Source: Gluconacetobacter aggeris (GTDB lineage: Bacteria; Pseudomonadota; Alphaproteobacteria; Acetobacterales; Acetobacteraceae). Taken from it: a stretch of DNA of 64,000 nucleotides. A program made the translations under genes and the position numbers. The stretch is taken from positions 62,001 through 126,000 of the forward strand of contig NZ_JABEQD010000004.1 of assembly GCF_014174395.1 (NCBI RefSeq). The letters are read 5' to 3'. The notes beneath the pieces are model-generated. The model was not told where the DNA came from. It did not search any database and saw only the letters and a program-made list of their open reading frames with translations. Positions 2,167 to 58,136 of this stretch are shown here, piece by piece. How positions within the stretch are numbered: position 1 is the first letter of the stretch; the number at the start of each line of letters is the position of its first letter.

Positions 2167-3423
2167 TCAGGCGCGATAGCGGCTGAGGGCCAGATCCTCG
2201 TGCGCGATGTCGGGCTTGCGGCCCGAGAGGATATCGGCCAGCACCCGGCCCGACCCGCAGGCCATGGTCCAGCCCAGCGTGCCGTGGCCGGTGTTGAGGT
2301 ACAGATTGTCGATGTCGGTGGGGCCGATGATCGGCGTGCCATCGGGCGTCATGGGGCGCAGCCCGGTCCAGAAGGTCGCGGCCGGCACGTCGCCGGCGCC
2401 GGCGAACAGGTCGGTCAGCGAATGTTCCAGCGTGGCCCGGCGCGGGGCGCGGAGCGTGGTGCTGAAGCCCGCCAGTTCGGCGGTGCCGCCGACGCGGATG
2501 CGCTCGCCCAGCCGGGTGATGCCGATCTTGTAGGTCTCGTCCATCACGGTGGAGACCGGGGCGCGCGCCGCGTTGATGATGGGCGCGGTGATCGAATAGC
2601 CTTTCACCGGATAGATCGGCAGGGCGAGCCCCAGGGCGCGCACCATGGCGGGCGAGAAACTGCCCAGTGCCAGCACATAGGCATCCGCGTTCATCCGGCC
2701 CCGGCTGGTGTCGATGCCGGTGATGCGGCCGCCCTCGCGCTGCAGGCTGCGGATGGTGGTGTCGTACAGGAAGGTCACGCCCCGTTCCGCCGCCATCGCC
2801 GCCAGGCGCTGGGTGAAGATGTGGGCGTCGCCGGTCTCGTCGCCCGGCAGGCGCAGGCCGCCGACGAGCTTGTCCTGTGCCGCCGCCAGTCCGGGTTCGG
2901 CCCGCACGCAGCCTGCGGCGTCCAGCACCTCGTACGGCACCTTGTACTGGTCCAGCACGCGCAGGTCGTCGCCGATATGGTCCAGTTGCTTCTGCTTGCG
3001 GAAGACCTGCAACGTGCCCTGCTGGCGGTCGTCATAGGCGATGCCGGTGCTGGCGCGCAGCTCGCCCATGACGTCGCGGCTATATTCCGCCAGCCGGACC
3101 ATGCGCCCCTTGTTGCGGTCGTAGGCGGCGGCCGTGCAGTTGGCCAGCATCTGCATCAGCCAGCGCCACTGGTGCGGGTCGGCCATCGGGCGGAAGACGA
3201 ACGGGCGATAGGCCATCAGCAGCCAGCGCACCGCCTTCAGCGGCACGCCCGGCCCGGCCCAGGGGGAGGAATAGCCGGGCGAGACCTGGCCGGCATTGGC
3301 GAAGCTGGTTTCCAGCCCCGCCGCCGGCTGCCGGTCGATGACCGTGACCGTGTGTCCGGCCTGCGCGAGGTACCAGGCCGAGGTCACGCCGACCACGCCG
3401 CCGCCGAGAATGATGATCTTCAT
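2167..3423 (-). CDS. dadA: D-amino acid dehydrogenase, FAD-dependent
   Basis: A 418-residue flavoprotein of the DAO family. The N terminus holds a beta-strand and the dinucleotide-binding loop [14 protein letters not shown], followed by an acidic/arginine end of the second strand (VIDR). The C terminus has the FAD-closing segment [16 protein letters not shown]. DadA oxidises D-alanine and other D-amino acids to 2-oxo acids and passes electrons to the membrane quinone pool. It is followed on the opposite side by alr, 19 bp upstream on the same strand, so alr and dadA form an operon that racemises L-alanine and oxidises the D form. A divergent Lrp-type gene beyond alr matches the known DadR arrangement. 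Confidence 0.93.
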
Positions 3424-53153: not shown

Positions 53154-53958
53154 ATGCCGCAGGGAAATCTGTTTTGTTCAACATTTCTAAGTCGAAATGT
53201 TGTCCTGCGCTCATGCTGCGCTGCGGTCGCGCTCCTGGGTATGCAGGCCCAGTCCTTCGCGGCAGCTTCGCATGGAACCGGTGGCAAGGCAAAGGCCAAT
53301 GTCGCAGCAGGCAAAGCGTTGCCTTCCGTTCAGCCCGCTGGCGAAGTGCGGAAGGCTCGTCAGGCATCCGCTCCGATGATTGCGCGAGCGAATGAAGATA
53401 TCGCGGTCCAGGGAACGCGTCTGGCCAATTCAGTGCTTTCTCCGTCCACGCGCGAGCATAGTACCGTACAGGTCTTCCGTTATGGCGCGGATCAACTCCG
53501 GGAAACGGGACAGACGAACATCCTTGCCGCGATCGCACAGATTTCACCGGCCGTCACGTCGTCCCCCTTTGGTGGAATTGGCGGAAACGGCCTGAACAAG
53601 ACTATGCAGCTTCGCAATCTGGGAGCTGATCAGACGTTGATGCTGGTGAATGGCAAGCGCCGCCATGTCGATGCCAATTTCAATTATTTCCAGTCCGGTC
53701 CGAATTATGGAACAGATCCTGCCGACCTGTCTCTGATCCCGATCAGTGCCATCGACCATGTCGAGATCATTACCGAAGGCGCGACCGCGCTATACGGACA
53801 GGATGCCGAGGCCGGCGCGGTCAATATCGTCCTGAAGCGCGATACGAAAGGGGGCTCGATCAATCTCCAGAACAGCGGATATTATCTTGGAGATGGCCAG
53901 GCCTTCGACGGAAATGCCAATTACGGCCTCGCCCTTGGGCATGACGGAGGTTATTTTA
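53154..53958 (+). pseudogene. TonB-dependent receptor, 5' part, split by an IS element
   Basis: Codes for about 268 residues of an outer-membrane receptor: signal peptide (SCCAAVALLGMQAQSFAAA), an N-terminal linker, a plug domain with TMQLRNLGADQTLMLVNGKR and ALYGQDAEAGAVNIVLKRD, and the start of the first barrel strands. The reading then runs 14 residues into the mobile element and stops. The 3' part resumes at 56359: joining TTT-A with AC-GTC across one TTA copy restores the frame (GYFNVAAQ), giving an intact 860-residue receptor before insertion. Unless the element leaves, the receptor is not functional; a truncated plug protein may be made. Confidence 0.9.
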
Positions 53959-53974
53959 GAGGCTGTTTGAAAAG
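53959..53974 (+). repeat. Left terminal inverted repeat of the IS
   Basis: GAGGCTGTTTGAAAAG, preceded by TTA (53956-53958). Differs from the right end at two positions. Confidence 0.85.
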
Positions 53975-54118
53975 CCTAAAAACAGCTTAAGAACTTGAGT
54001 CATACCAAGGTAACTTGGTCAGATTTATAATGTAACGAAATGTATCTTTCGTTAGTGCAGCTATCATGTTCTATGTTTGTTCACCATTGAGCCGAAGGCC
54101 GTTGTTGGGCCAAATAGC

Positions 54119-54170
54119 AACGGGGCCGGGTGTAGCAGCACCCGGCCCCGTTAGGGGAGAAGACTCCCCT
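54119..54170 (+). promoter_or_regulatory. Two tandem hairpins in the leader of the 53-aa gene
   Basis: AACGGGGCCGGGTG/CACCCGGCCCCGTT (54119-54152, 14 perfect pairs, loop TAGCAG) is followed after no gap by AGGGGAG/CTCCCCT (54153-54170, loop AAGA). The first could be a terminator that blocks outside transcription from entering the element; the pair could also be a structured leader for the gene at 54210. Confidence 0.6.
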
Positions 54171-54209
54171 GATGGATTCCACCCAACTCAATCACAGGAA
54201 CCCAACCTC

Positions 54210-54371
54210 ATGACCGCGAGAGACTTGGCCCAAGCGGAAATCGAAAGGTGCGCTGCCACCTTTTACGCTACAGGAAGAATTATCATTCCCAGCCCGAGCA
54301 TAATACAGGCAGCACAACGCGAGGATATGCAAATGGCGGCTTCTCGCATTTTGAAAAGTCTTCAGAAATAA
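54210..54371 (+). CDS. IS passenger, small protein of 53 aa
   Basis: Begins MTARDLAQAEIERCAATFYA and ends in DMQMAASRILKSLQK; the whole is likely two helices with one cysteine. Not recognised. It is framed on one side by two tandem hairpins and on the other by a strong intrinsic terminator 7 bp after the stop, which argues it is a real transcription unit rather than a chance opening. The ATG at 54210 has CACAGGAACC upstream. It is too short for a confident function; antitoxin or small regulator is possible, without evidence. Confidence 0.55.
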   Translation: MTARDLAQAEIERCAATFYATGRIIIPSPSIIQAAQREDMQMAASRILKSLQK

Positions 54372-54377
54372 TTTGCA

Positions 54378-54410
54378 GGGGTGACGGTTTTTCCGTCACC
54401 CCATTTTTAC
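54378..54410. terminator. Intrinsic terminator after the 53-aa gene
   Basis: GGGGTGACGG and CCGTCACCCC pair over 10 bp around TTTTT, then ATTTTTAC. It lies between two facing small genes and ends the plus-strand transcript. Confidence 0.85.
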
Positions 54411-54427
54411 CAAAACACTATTAATTA

Positions 54428-54583
54428 TCAACGAACCTCTTTGGGTTCAGCGAAAAATCTTGGGTTTCCGTACTGCATTTTTATGAGTTCTTTTGCATTG
54501 AACACATTACTTGCCGTCACAGAGACCTCTTGAATGCTACCGTTTTTCAGGACGATCTTCGCTTTGAAAAGCTTCTCAGCCAT
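54428..54583 (-). CDS. IS passenger, small protein of 51 aa on the opposite strand
   Basis: Reads MAEKLFKAKIVLKNGSIQEV, then SVTASNVFNAKELIKMQYG, then NPRFFAEPKEVR. The pattern strand-strand-helix with VxASNxFxAKELIxMQYG resembles short accessory proteins found on plasmids and phages, where the helix ends in a conserved aromatic-glycine; I cannot name a family. Codon use is natural for a coding region, and the start ATG at 54583 comes right after the repeated motif TTGGCAGGGCAATGAAACACGG, which may be its operator or leader. The opposed orientation to the 53-aa gene and the shared terminator suggest two small regulated units. Confidence 0.6.
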   Translation of the reverse strand: MAEKLFKAKIVLKNGSIQEVSVTASNVFNAKELIKMQYGNPRFFAEPKEVR

Positions 54584-54591
54584 CTTTGTCA

Positions 54592-54810
54592 CCGTGTTTC
54601 ATTGCCCTGCCAAGGGCATAGCTACGCCACCGACACCTCCTGGCGTCGGGCGGTTGGCAGCGTGTGAAACAAGGTGAACGCACGCCCTGCCTATTTCCCA
54701 GACGATGAACAGCTTTCACCGTTCACCGCTGGACCATAGGTCCGGGTGTTGTATTCGGCAGGCCACCCGACATAGGGGCCGCCTTGTTTCAATCGCGCTG
54801 CCAAGCGCAC
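54592..54810. ncRNA. Structured non-coding stretch with a three-copy motif in the IS
   Basis: TGTTTCA-(3-5 nt)-GCnCTGCCAA occurs at 54595 and 54786 in direct orientation and, reverse-complemented, at about 54652-54674 (TTGGCAGCGTGTGAAACAAGG). The TGCCAA is the loop of small hairpins whose stems differ but stay paired: GCCC/GGGC in copy 1, GCGC/GCGC in copy 3. Copies 2 and 3 could close a stem of about 18 bp around a 110-nt region that includes GGACC-ATA-GGTCC. Either an RNA or tandem protein-binding sites for the divergent genes; the sequence cannot decide. Confidence 0.4.
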
Positions 54811-54951
54811 GGGCAGCCTAGCACATGACCGGCCATGCGGCTACAGCACACGCTAATAGACTGATATATAACAACATTACAAAAATTTTAATTGATTTTT
54901 CTGCCCGATTTATTACCATTACGGAATGGTATTCGCGTTGTGCCCGTAGCC

Positions 54952-55746
54952 ATGGCGTATGACACAGACCTCACTGATGACCAGTGGCGGTTAATCAGGC
55001 GTCATATCCCACGCGCCAAAAAGGGCGGCAGGCCCCGCGAAACCAGCATGAGGCGGGTTATTGACGCCATCATGTATGTGGTGACGCACGGCTGCAAATG
55101 GCGTGGGTTGCCCAAGGACTTCCCGCCGTGGCGCACGGTGTACGGCTATTTCTCTGAATTGCAGGAGCGTGGCCGGTGGCGACGCATACACTACGCCCTG
55201 TATGAGATGGTGCGTGATGAAGCAGGTAGGCAACCCGACCCTACTCTGCTGATTATCGACAGCCAAAGCGTGAAAACCGGCAAATGCGCCGAGGCTCCTA
55301 CCAAGGGCTATGATGGTGGCAAGCGCGTCAAAGGGCGCAAGCGCCACGTTCTGGTCGATAGTATGGGCCTGCTGGTGGACGTGGCCGTCACCCCGGCCAA
55401 CGTGCATGACACCAAAGGCGCCGTGAAGGTCCTCAAAAAGTATCAGAAACGGGTGAAACAACCCCGCGTGAGGAAGATCATCGGGGACAAGGGCTATCGT
55501 GGCGAGATGCTGAAAGGCTTCGTTCGCAAAGCGTTCAAAGCCGTAGTAGCCATAGGCCAGAACCACACCAGCACCGCCAACGGTTTCGTTCCCGACGAGA
55601 AGAGATGGCTGGTAGAACGTGGCTTCGCTTGGTTGGGCGACTATTGGCGCCTATCCATTGATAGAGAACGCCTCATGGCGCATAGTTGTGCCATGGTGAG
55701 ACTGGCCTTCATCAGGTTGATGCTGAGAAGGCTAGTGCCTATGTAG
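54952..55746 (+). CDS. IS5-family DDE transposase
   Basis: A 264-residue single-frame transposase. LTDDQWRLIRRHIP opens the N-terminal DNA-binding domain, CKWRGLPKDFPPWRTVYGYF is the conserved IS5 signature, and the RNase-H-like catalytic residues are D103 in IIDSQSVK, D179 in IGDKGYRG and E222 in VERGFAWL, in the order and spacing of the family. It cuts and joins the element's ends at TTA targets (from this insertion). The ATG at 54952 is preferred; the reading is open a little upstream but starts in AT-rich leader DNA. An AT-rich gene follows 21 bp later, probably in the same transcript. Confidence 0.93.
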   Translation: MAYDTDLTDDQWRLIRRHIPRAKKGGRPRETSMRRVIDAIMYVVTHGCKWRGLPKDFPPWRTVYGYFSELQERGRWRRIHYALYEMVRDEAGRQPDPTLLIIDSQSVKTGKCAEAPTKGYDGGKRVKGRKRHVLVDSMGLLVDVAVTPANVHDTKGAVKVLKKYQKRVKQPRVRKIIGDKGYRGEMLKGFVRKAFKAVVAIGQNHTSTANGFVPDEKRWLVERGFAWLGDYWRLSIDRERLMAHSCAMVRLAFIRLMLRRLVPM

Positions 55747-55767
55747 GGATATAGGAGGGGGAAAGTA

Positions 55768-56103
55768 GTGAAGTTGGCAAATTTGATAAAACAAAATCAT
55801 ACGAATAATTTCATGGTTTCATTTAGACTTAAAAAAATAAGCCGTCCTGACTATAGTGATGTCTATGAGAATCTCCGAAAAAAACTAAAAGAGTACGACA
55901 ATTTTAACCATACAACATCATGCTATATTATTAAGACCGAAGAGGGCATTTTTGACATTTCGTCAGAATTGAAAAAGTTTATTAATCCAGATATTGATAG
56001 AATAATCGTAAAGAATTTAGACGTAGTTGAAGCTACTTTTATTGGTCCGGAAAAATTTTATAAGGAGTTAATCCGATTTATCAAACATATCGAATGGGTA
56101 TAA
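55768..56103 (+). CDS. IS passenger, AT-rich gene for a SinR/Cas2-like small protein (111 aa)
   Basis: A 111-residue product whose gene is about two-thirds A+T, unlike the host genes. It begins with a strand (NFMVSFRLKK), then a helix after PDYSDVYENLRKKLKEYDNF, a strand with TTSCYIIKTEEG, a helix ISSELKKFIN and a strand RIIVKNLD. The order beta-alpha-beta-beta-alpha-beta and the pattern S-F-R-L-K-K near the start, hydrophobic-S-C-Y-I-I-K in the middle and D-x-hydrophobic-I-V-K near the end recall SinR-like and Cas2-like proteins of the ferredoxin fold. That is fold-level resemblance only. GTG start at 55768 with AGGAGGGGG 7 bp upstream. Confidence 0.6.
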   Translation: MKLANLIKQNHTNNFMVSFRLKKISRPDYSDVYENLRKKLKEYDNFNHTTSCYIIKTEEGIFDISSELKKFINPDIDRIIVKNLDVVEATFIGPEKFYKELIRFIKHIEWV

Positions 56104-56187
56104 ACCTACATCAATATCTATACCAAGCTGTTGAGCAACAAGAAATATAATTCTACATTTCCATTTATTGTTCAGCCATTTTAGCAT
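56068..56187 (-). CDS. Possible 39-aa antisense protein at the right end of the IS
   Basis: Reads MLKWLNNKWKCRIIFLVAQQ then LGIDIDVGLYPFDMFDKSD. The ATG at 56187 has GGAGG 5 nt upstream, an excellent ribosome site. It overlaps the last 36 bp of the AT-rich gene on the other strand. In AT-rich DNA such openings are more meaningful than in the host background, but the length is too small for certainty. Confidence 0.3.
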   Translation of the reverse strand: MLKWLNNKWKCRIIFLVAQQLGIDIDVGLYPFDMFDKSD

Positions 56188-56287
56188 TTCATCCTCCATT
56201 TGTGACAAATAGGGCGCAATTAGCCCACCCTAACTTTACCCAAATGGCAGAAATTATCTTCTTACCGGAAATTACCCGTGTAACGGT

Positions 56288-56324
56288 AAACCCACCCAAG
56301 TCGGCTTGTGCCGACTCAGGGTTT
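56288..56324 (+). terminator. Hairpin near the right end of the IS
   Basis: AAACCC and GGGTTT enclose AGTCGGC-TTGT-GCCGACT. It lies between the passenger gene and the right terminal repeat and would end transcription leaving the element. Confidence 0.65.
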
Positions 56325-56339
56325 CAGCCCGTTTGGAGC

Positions 56340-56355
56340 CTTTTCAAACAGTCAC
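56340..56355 (-). repeat. Right terminal inverted repeat of the IS
   Basis: CTTTTCAAACAGTCAC on the plus strand, followed by TTA (56356-56358), the second copy of the target duplication. Confidence 0.85.
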
Positions 56356-58136
56356 TTAACGTCGCGGCACAGATCTCCAACCAGCTTTCTACGAATCGTT
56401 CGGGCGATTATCCGGGCAATCTCTATTTTTCGGGCGATCCCCGCAACAAGACGGCGAGCAAGGACGTGCAGCGCATCGCCGGCACGCCACGGACGTTGCT
56501 CGAGACAGTCAGCACCAATGCGGCCTATCCCGTCGGTGCCGGCTTTGAGGTCTATAATACGTCTACTTTCGCCCATAAGGACATGGTCCAAGCCCAGACC
56601 TATCGTGCGCCGTCGAACGATACGGTCGTGCGGGCATTGTATCCTGACGGAATGCAGCCCCTGGCCCTGGCTGAGGAATATGATTTTCAGGTCGATAATG
56701 GTATTCGGGCCCATAATTTTCTGGGAATGCAATGGGACGCCTATGTCAATTACGGGCGCGATTCTATGAAGACCCTCATTGCCAATACGGATAATCCCAC
56801 CCTGGGCGTCGAAAGTCCCCGGACCTTTAAGACCAGCCTGTTCATTTCAACGGAACTTGCAGCCGGTCTGCGAGCGACCAAATTCTTTCATCCTTCGGCG
56901 CTCCCCAAGCCGCTGAGCCTGTCCTATGGTTTCGAATATCGTTTCGATACTTACCAGGTCGGTGCGGGCGACCTGGGATCGGTCATCGATGGCGGCATGC
57001 CGATCCTGGATGGCCCCAACGCCGGAAAGCCCGCGGCTGCCGGCGCGGTAGACAAGTTCGGTGTGCCCGCCATGGCAGGAAGCATCAACAATCGAGGTAT
57101 CTACGACGGTTACGTCAATATGGACCTGTATCTGACGAAGCGGTGGGAATGGACATTCGGGGGGCATGTCGCCGGTTATGACGATGTCGGCATCCACCCG
57201 ACCGGGTCCATTGGAACGCGTTACGATATCAATAGCAGGCTGGCCGTCAGAGCGAATGCCAACACAGGCTACCGAGCCCCGACGCTGGGTGAGGAGGCGT
57301 TCTTCGCCGAGACGACCTATCCGACCTATCGCACGGCGCAACTCCCGGTGAATTCAACCTGGGCGAAATCGCTGGGTGCCAGCAGGCTCAAGGGCGAGCA
57401 GTCGCGCAGCTTCAGCGTGGGCGTGGATGCTACGCTTCTGCCGGACTGGACGCTGACGGCCAATCTGTATCGTATTTCGATCAACGATCGCCTGTTCAAT
57501 ACATCCCAGTTCGGGGGCAACGAGATCGAAAATCTTCTGGCCGGCGCGGGCCTGCCGGGTGTCTATTATGCGTCTTATTACAGCAATCCGGTCAATACGA
57601 CGACCAGCGGAGGCGATATCGCGACATCCTATACCTGGCGGACAGCGCGGGCCGGGACATTTCAATTCAGGTTTTCGGTCAATATCGGCGATACGCAGAT
57701 CAGCCACTATAATGCGACGCCGGCTCTCCTGTCCGGGATGGGCCTGAGTACCTTCAATCGTACAAACGAGGAATATCTTCTTCACTCCTCACCGAGGAAT
57801 GTCGAGAACCTGACCGTTCTGTGGAACAAGGGTCCTTATTCCATCAGGGTGGAAGAGCAGCGGTTCGGCGCCTACACCTGGGTTGCCTCGCCATCCCTGC
57901 AACAGACGCAATGGACTTACGCCGGCCCGTCCTACATCACCAACCTCGAAATCGGTTACGACATCTTCAAGAGATGGCATGTGGCTGCGGGCGCCTATAA
58001 TGTCGGCAACCATTATCCGGCACGCGCCAATGCGGCCTCCAGAGCCGCGTTGCAGAATTCGTTCCTTTATGCCGGAAATTCACCCTATGGATTTAATGGC
58101 GGCATGTATTACGTGAAGACGTCCCTGCGTTTCTGA
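56356..58136 (+). pseudogene. TonB-dependent receptor, 3' part, split by an IS element
   Basis: Encodes about 592 residues, the whole outer-membrane barrel: SLSYGFEYRFDTYQVGAG, GYRAPTLGEEAFFAETTYP with the conserved RAP motif, and a terminal SLRF ending in the aromatic residue needed for barrel assembly. No stop or frameshift is seen in it, so the split is the only visible lesion and is recent. The reading continues upstream into the element without a useful start. It belongs with the fragment at 53154-53958. It is followed by an MFS gene after 79 bp. Confidence 0.9.

Follow-up and report, generated by a model that had tools for sequence, protein, structure and literature searches.

Introduction

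Transporter insertion sequences (tIS) combine one transposase gene with passenger genes that are unrelated to transposition. The C4 antisense RNA of phage P1 is processed from a shared transcript and represses ant in trans. A third described system, the small RNA (sRNA) sRNA-Xcc1 (RF02221), is reportedly called trans-acting in the title of Chen et al. 2011. The term transporter IS stands in a figure legend of PMC9330008, and C4-Ant regulation is treated in the sampled part of PMC8201110. For sRNA-Xcc1, an 88-nt transcript was mapped by rapid amplification of cDNA ends (RACE; PMC2996969, in excerpt), and the literature passages sampled discuss it as a trans-acting, virulence-linked sRNA. According to excerpts of two further papers, an integron cassette of Xanthomonas has the RNA ahead of symE, for which 'a divergent regulatory mechanism' is suggested (PMC12444791), and five copies lie within ~1.6 kb of an island in Xylella (PMC12189769). 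Here we compare these systems with an IS5-family element of 2,397 bp, whose inverted ends are flanked by a TTA duplication, at 53959–56355 of a 64,000-nt stretch of Gluconacetobacter aggeris (the window; contig NZ_JABEQD010000004.1, positions 62,001–126,000). We read it, with a probability of roughly 0.72, as a transporter IS whose exchangeable cargo would be translationally gated by a C4-like antisense leader RNA.

The element and its insertion site

The host genome comprises 4.32 Mb in 61 contigs, and the full 2.4-kb unit occurs once in it. Its boundaries and transposase gene are as follows.

53956–53958, TTA target-site duplication, left copy (sequence comparison of the flanks)
53959–53974, plus strand, left terminal inverted repeat GAGGCTGTTTGAAAAG (16-base end motif)
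54952–55746, plus strand, IS5-family transposase (NF033580, DUF4096, DDE_Tnp_1)
56340–56355, minus strand, right terminal inverted repeat CTTTTCAAACAGTCAC (16-base end motif)
56356–56358, TTA target-site duplication, right copy (sequence comparison of the flanks)

The element breaks a TonB-dependent receptor gene, named from its sequence and not from a family search, which starts at 53154 and is interrupted after 53958. Rejoined in silico by removing the element and one TTA, the gene has 860 open codons from 53154. The site is uninterrupted in four genomes of the same genus (G002, G009, G004, and G012), where the matches to the two flanks lie 1–4 bases apart; in a fifth (G011), they lie 9 bases apart. 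The matching ends and TTA duplication described in the first-pass annotation are confirmed. No nested end pair close to the transposase, which that annotation had named as evidence against a single unit, emerged: the 16-base end motif, with up to 3 mismatches allowed, gives the outer ends alone, and a shorter 12-base motif has two inner matches (2 mismatches) that point the same way. In DNA searches of 147 relatives and of plasmids, only partial relatives of the 2.4-kb unit came up. The transposase scores 229.8 bits against NF033580 (cut-off 110, 3.9e-68) and matches DUF4096 and DDE_Tnp_1 in Pfam. The element thus has the DDE transposase, the terminal inverted repeats, and the short TNA duplication by which the IS5 family is defined.

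Nine complete units and their exchangeable cargo

Including that of the window, nine complete units could be delimited, with lengths spanning 2,212–3,627 bp. All except one have an exact 3-bp TNA duplication (TAA, TCA, or TTA).

Window, 2,397 bp
G359, 2,280 bp
G072, 2,704 bp
G345, 3,627 bp
G068, 2,212 bp
G210, 2,850 bp
L047, Komagataeibacter saccharivorans plasmid, 2,954 bp, no exact duplication
L218, Acetobacter sp. UBA5411, 2,514 bp
L219, K. xylinus NBRC 15237, 3,338 bp

As such units lie at differing TNA sites, eight of the nine with an exact duplication, the earlier proposal that one unit moved as a whole is upheld; by comparison, the boundaries, the duplication, and the recurrence of the unit are established. 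Constant in the nine are the ends, the transposase, and an RNA divergent from the transposase. The gene order, which had been called unusual, is not unusual for the clade, as the RNA is divergent from the transposase in all nine units. Passengers differ between units; a 51-aa and a 111-aa gene of the window recur jointly in one other unit (G359). The fixed passenger set that the first-pass annotation envisaged was rejected, since relatives keep ends, RNA, and transposase and swap their passengers.

Directly behind the RNA lies a member of the 51-aa family in the window, G359, L218, and G008, the last with no transposase relative found beside the RNA. Elsewhere, Pfam assigns the cargo behind the RNA to a PH-domain protein (G072), an FkbM methyltransferase (L047), a SHOCT-domain protein (G068), and a TM2 protein (G426). 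By sequence likeness, further cargo is FkbM-like (G345, G251, G366, and G292) or SHOCT-like (G236), and that of G210 is a 105-aa protein. G072 and G345 share 90% identity across 1,156 bp that cover transposase and RNA. This likeness ends 5–8 nt before the cargo start codon, and beyond it only the last 23 bp are similar; on the transposase side, the terminal ~190 bp have 79% identity. G072 carries the PH-domain protein as cargo, and G345 a protein related to the FkbM methyltransferase of L047. G359 and L218 are 92% identical over the transposase, the RNA, and most of the 51-aa gene, and their other cargo differs. The slot after the transposase varies as well, with a different related pair in G345 and G210 (29% identity over 65 aa). 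Comparison of the units shows that one cargo gene is replaced by another behind a retained RNA. No integrase was recognised by eye among the open reading frames (ORFs) of the nine units; attC sites were not searched. The G345 unit (L108, unit positions ~2300–3136) also has a second, different IS5-like transposase gene, 41% identical to the window's transposase, which appears to split the FkbM cargo gene.

The transposase alignment was scanned against genome contigs, and the best 80 of 156 matches were kept. Among these, the RNA (model R1, described below) is present at all six loci with at least 64% transposase identity, all in Acetobacteraceae, and was not found at the other 74. One of the six (L294) is a partial match with 82% identity over residues 2–112, and three (L220, L221, and L294) probably come from the same genomes as G-numbered ones. 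Within the best 80 matches, the clade of the element's transposase is seen only in Acetobacteraceae. When 27 of the 74 RNA-less loci were tested, 19 had inverted ends 0.89–1.05 kb apart, and 7 of these are flanked on each side by an identical 3-base TNA. Since the RNA is confined to close relatives and the tested others are largely compact, the cargo form may have branched off from compact IS5 elements. Viewed from the RNA, a transposase relative (whole or broken) lies divergently 121–201 bp upstream at 9 of 67 R1 places.

A conserved leader RNA with a pseudoknot

The minus strand of 54583–54830 folds with z = -5.6. Its features are as follows.

54815–54825, minus strand, extended -10-like element TGTGCTAGGCT, aligned across copies (consensus; putative promoter)
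54623–54825, minus strand, structured leader RNA (model R1), distant relative of sRNA-Xcc1 (folding, alignment, covariation)
54782–54809, minus strand, 5' pairing segment (P0-5'; covariation, duplex prediction)
54654–54678, minus strand, 3' pseudoknot strand including the P4 loop (UUCACCUUGUUUCACACGCUGCCAA), able to pair with 54782–54809 or with the ribosome-binding site (RBS) region 54584–54616
54584–54616, minus strand, second copy of the 5' segment, with hairpin loop UUGGCA and then UGAAACACGGUG, over the Shine-Dalgarno region of the 51-aa gene (by eye, duplex prediction)

Because this folded stretch ends just before the 51-aa gene, the two probably form one transcription unit. The first-pass annotation had listed a minus-strand 51-aa gene and a structured stretch; both are present, probably not as separate items, and its account of the stretch was incomplete in that we find a conserved, regulatory-type RNA on the minus strand. 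The R1 alignment holds 22 copies, which align well. In the pseudoknot helix (columns 25–34 with 181–189), both partners have changed in 6 of the 9 pairs, and paired cells make up 96%. Over the whole R1 structure, written by hand for these counts, paired cells fall from 97% to 34–50% when the partners are slid. Covariation cannot test the closing helix and P2, as both hardly vary. The structure from RNAalifold was replaced because its short 3' helix sat on the pseudoknot strand. Judged by covariation, the RNA has a conserved core that a pseudoknot holds together. R1 matches 41 of 397 genomes of the family and 13 of 337 of the class, two of the latter from the family.

The window RNA aligns with positions 1–87 of 87 of RF02221 (E = 0.0006), with an insertion. 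The RF02221 core and closing helix are also matched in 11 of 11 other loci (13 matches, E = 0.007–0.86, mostly weak singly), and there too every score stays below the cut-off. The RNA of L035 scores 37.2 bits, under the cut-off, and none of 21 genomes tested has RF02221 over it. No known Rfam family in the unit passes its cut-off.

Two alternative pairings at the cargo-type loci

By eye, most cargo-type copies have a second hairpin before the start codon, whose loop is the same or nearly the same as that of the 5' hairpin. These loops vary by unit (UUGGCA, UUGGUC, and GUCGUA), and the duplicated hairpin is followed by a similar A-rich and purine stretch directly before the start codon. The second copy was not seen by eye in G256, G185, G024, and G301. 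For the window, a hand count gives 11 of 12 pairs between UGAAACACGGUG ahead of the 51-aa gene and CACCUUGUUUCA of the loop. Using duplexfold on 17 of the 23 cargo-type loci, the predicted duplex of the 3' strand has -29.3 to -43.0 kcal/mol with the 5' segment and -21.2 to -39.9 kcal/mol with the RBS region. These loci were picked after the RBS copies had been seen by eye, and some start codons are the first ATG, unchecked; left out were a near-duplicate (L048) and five loci without a visible or placeable copy. The RBS duplex lies at least 2 standard deviations below mononucleotide shuffles in 13 of the 17 and extends into the start codon in 15.

We then compared each P4 loop with its own downstream region and with mismatched ones. 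At the 23 cargo-type loci (18 distinct loops), the scores are 27.6 matched and 23.3 mismatched, reached in 0 of 20,000 permutations. That set was chosen by the presence of a transposase or the lack of the usual chromosomal ORF, after the RBS copies had been partly seen, which makes the runs on all 69 loci (45 distinct; 1 of 20,000) and on the 11 transposase-bearing loci (9 distinct; 63 of 20,000) the fairer ones. The loop also fits its own 5' segment at the cargo-type loci (0 of 20,000). The pseudoknot is kept at the 46 transposase-less loci, where the strand fits the 5' segment (0 of 20,000; 13 distinct). As far as these alignments and permutations go, the two alternative pairings follow the cargo.

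Many of the transposase-less multi-copy RNAs (L042, L043, L040, L041, and others; G000 and relatives) precede, by eye, an ORF family of ~75 aa or a GST-like gene. They keep the pseudoknot and have mostly lost the RBS match; such copies are possibly domesticated or trans-acting.

sRNA-Xcc1 elsewhere in the phylum

Among 398 phylum genomes searched with RF02221, 54 have a match at E ≤ 1e-4 and 39 one over the cut-off; 14 control genomes have none. We tested 62 places: of the 66 listed above the cut-off, 61 were included, together with a single one below it. The loop scores 24.2 against the region 3–63 nt downstream of its own RNA and 20.9 against mismatched regions (0 of 20,000 permutations). 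Control segments 0–26, 10–36, and 20–46 show nothing (5,790, 6,598, and 7,582 of 20,000), nor does the loop against the reversed target (2,294 of 20,000). For 10 of 61 loops, the own downstream region is the best of all. In some good cases, the complementary bases flank the Shine-Dalgarno sequence on both sides, right before the ATG. Long targets and strict mismatches, as used in an initial permutation test, gave a weaker result, and the target was shortened and the mismatches eased post hoc. The initial test was also positive for the 3'-ward RNA segments 56–78, 64–86, and 72–94, presumably owing to local hairpins and overlap.

Nine client proteins, picked by eye from 57, comprise SymE (2), Bro-N (3), KilA-N (1), P22_AR_N (1), and Rha (2). 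The loop-RBS pairing is not stated in the literature passages sampled on sRNA-Xcc1; the link from RNA to downstream gene is partly in print, since PMC12444791, in the part seen, notes the RNA upstream of symE. Our reading recasts sRNA-Xcc1, trans-acting in print, as a putative cis-encoded regulator. As separate observations, sRNA-Xcc1 occurs in several copies per genome (G987 at 9 places, G807 at 6, G1089 at 5, and G899 at 3), some within a few kb, and its loop matches the stretch 5–75 nt ahead of the RNA itself, which would fit a 5' partner segment in some canonical copies.

Passenger ORFs of the window unit

54428–54583, minus strand, 51-aa cargo gene behind the leader RNA (relatives, substitution pattern)
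55768–56103, plus strand, 111-aa cargo gene downstream of the transposase (related gene at the equivalent position of the G359 unit)
54210–54371, plus strand, 53-aa ORF, unsupported as a gene (no relatives, no codon bias)
54119–54152, perfect 14-bp hairpin with a 6-nt loop between the left end and the 53-aa ORF (possible terminator)

The 51-aa protein is 71% identical in the G359 unit and 60% identical over 45 aa in G008, and occurs in L218 as well. Substitutions by codon position number 15/10/30 against G359 and 11/9/22 against G008, a third-position excess. The protein is matched in 6 of 299 family genomes, the window's own included. Four of the six are more distant, L214 (G200), L215 (G351), L216 (G158), and L217 (G168), and have no R1 match at their loci; the protein family thus also occurs away from the RNA. 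Among the collected loci, the 111-aa protein is related to one encoded in the G359 unit, with 29% identity over 62 aa (tblastn E = 1.5e-6); a weak match to Cas2 (E = 0.14) was not trusted as its identity. Neither protein has a Pfam match over the cut-off or an NCBIfam match. The 53-aa ORF, taken for a plus-strand gene in the first-pass annotation, does not hold up as one: GC content is flat across codon positions (0.48/0.48/0.50), and no relative among the collected loci, no Pfam match over the cut-off, and no NCBIfam match was found. A 41-base stretch resembling the hairpin at 54119–54152 lies in another genome of the genus (G001:C5:170056-170096).

Proposed mechanism and alternatives

We infer a promoter, control of translation and its direction, processing or action in trans, and a signal read by the core. 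The transposase would move everything between the ends and duplicate the TNA target, as the comparison of units suggests. Between transposase and main cargo, the divergent leader RNA would be made from its own likely promoter. Its pseudoknot strand with the P4 loop, ~36 nt long, is, by sequence, complementary to the 5' segment of the RNA and to the second copy of that segment over the Shine-Dalgarno sequence and start codon. With the strand on the RBS, the cargo would be off; with the strand on the 5' segment, it would be on. The leader RNA may also act in trans after processing, like P1 C4 RNA on ant. Because one strand is complementary to both the 5' segment and the copy overlapping the RBS, the RNA is most likely a translational gate for the cargo.

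Several results weigh against this reading. The window RNA has 35.8 bits against RF02221, where the cut-off is 53. The unit L047 is complete and has no exact target duplication, and at the transposase-bearing loci G251/L294, L048, G426, G004, and L222 at most one end was located within the mismatch limit applied. The 46 transposase-less loci show little loop-RBS match (632 of 20,000), and at the cargo-type loci the last 9 nt of the strand alone match downstream weakly (338 of 20,000; 10 distinct). For RF02221, the own target ranks in the top 10% at only 24 of 61 loci, and the loop is above chance against the upstream control as well (8 of 20,000). The 5' duplex is predicted to be stronger than the RBS duplex in 17 of 17 loci, near equal in G359 and G290, so the default state of the gate may be on.

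That the window holds a plain IS5 element beside chromosomal genes, its ends and duplication being coincidental, would agree with the ~0.9-kb elements of 19 of the 27 tested transposases outside the clade, but we rejected it as hardly credible given the empty-site orthologues, the exact duplications of 8 of 9 units, and the lack of an inner end pair. It is unlikely, too, that the RNA is a trans-acting sRNA whose position upstream of cargo is incidental. The reported label of Chen et al. 2011, taken from a title, the multi-copy stand-alone RNAs in this genus, and the 88-nt RACE-mapped transcript (PMC2996969, in excerpt) speak for it, but the loops fit the sequence just after their own RNA better than the corresponding sequence at other loci, a preference not expected if the placement were incidental. 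A ligand-sensing riboswitch deserves somewhat more credit, though we hold it for the less probable account: the ligand of the core (AAUA..AACACCCGG and GGAAAUA) would be a metabolite or a protein, with the loop-RBS helix as a mere expression platform. Many bases in unpaired core parts of the structure used are invariant in 22 of 22 sequences, a like motif stands in the RF02221 consensus, and mutually exclusive pairings are the usual layout of a switch. However, the downstream genes examined (antirepressor domains, SymE, small membrane proteins, and FkbM) suggest no common pathway.

The translational gate can be extended, tentatively and with doubt, to the whole sRNA-Xcc1/R1 superfamily. It would then be a mobile expression module, a bistable leader with its own barcode (the loop and the matching RBS copy). 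Any gene behind it in an IS, prophage, or integron would be silenced by its own antisense strand and released by a common signal sensed by the invariant core. If the gate holds, loop-RBS pairs predict the gene controlled by each RNA copy, and sRNA-Xcc1, matched in 54 of 398 sampled phylum genomes, gains a testable function. It also suggests how a small insertion sequence could carry foreign genes without mistimed expression.

Comparison with known systems

With the C4 antisense RNAs (phage P1; RF01695, and c4-2, RF02944), the leader shares complementarity to the RBS region of the putatively regulated gene, and the clients of RF02221 are of antirepressor type. C4 covariance models give no match up to E = 5 in 53900–56400 and none at the 20 RF02221 RNAs scanned, with one c4-2 match elsewhere in L161. 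Since the models do not match, the leader is most likely one that works like C4 and is not itself a C4 RNA. With sRNA-Xcc1, it shares the core and long-range helix, which align end to end, complementarity of the loop to the sequence ahead of the following gene, and the mobile contexts noted in the sampled parts of PMC12444791 and PMC12189769. It differs in falling below the family cut-off and in its extra hairpin, its 5' pseudoknot segment, and its cargo. IS5 elements with a TNA duplication, probably IS1031-like, have the NF033580 transposase, similar ends, and 3-bp TNA duplications in common with the units described here; ordinary ones have ~0.9 kb, whereas these units have 2.2–3.6 kb with cargo and leader RNA. 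As in tIS, passengers lie between the ends with no accessory transposition gene; several of the cargo proteins are without a family match. Active movement of the whole unit is suggested by comparative evidence. In contrast to tIS, the cargo here stands behind a conserved leader RNA and is swapped close to its start codon.

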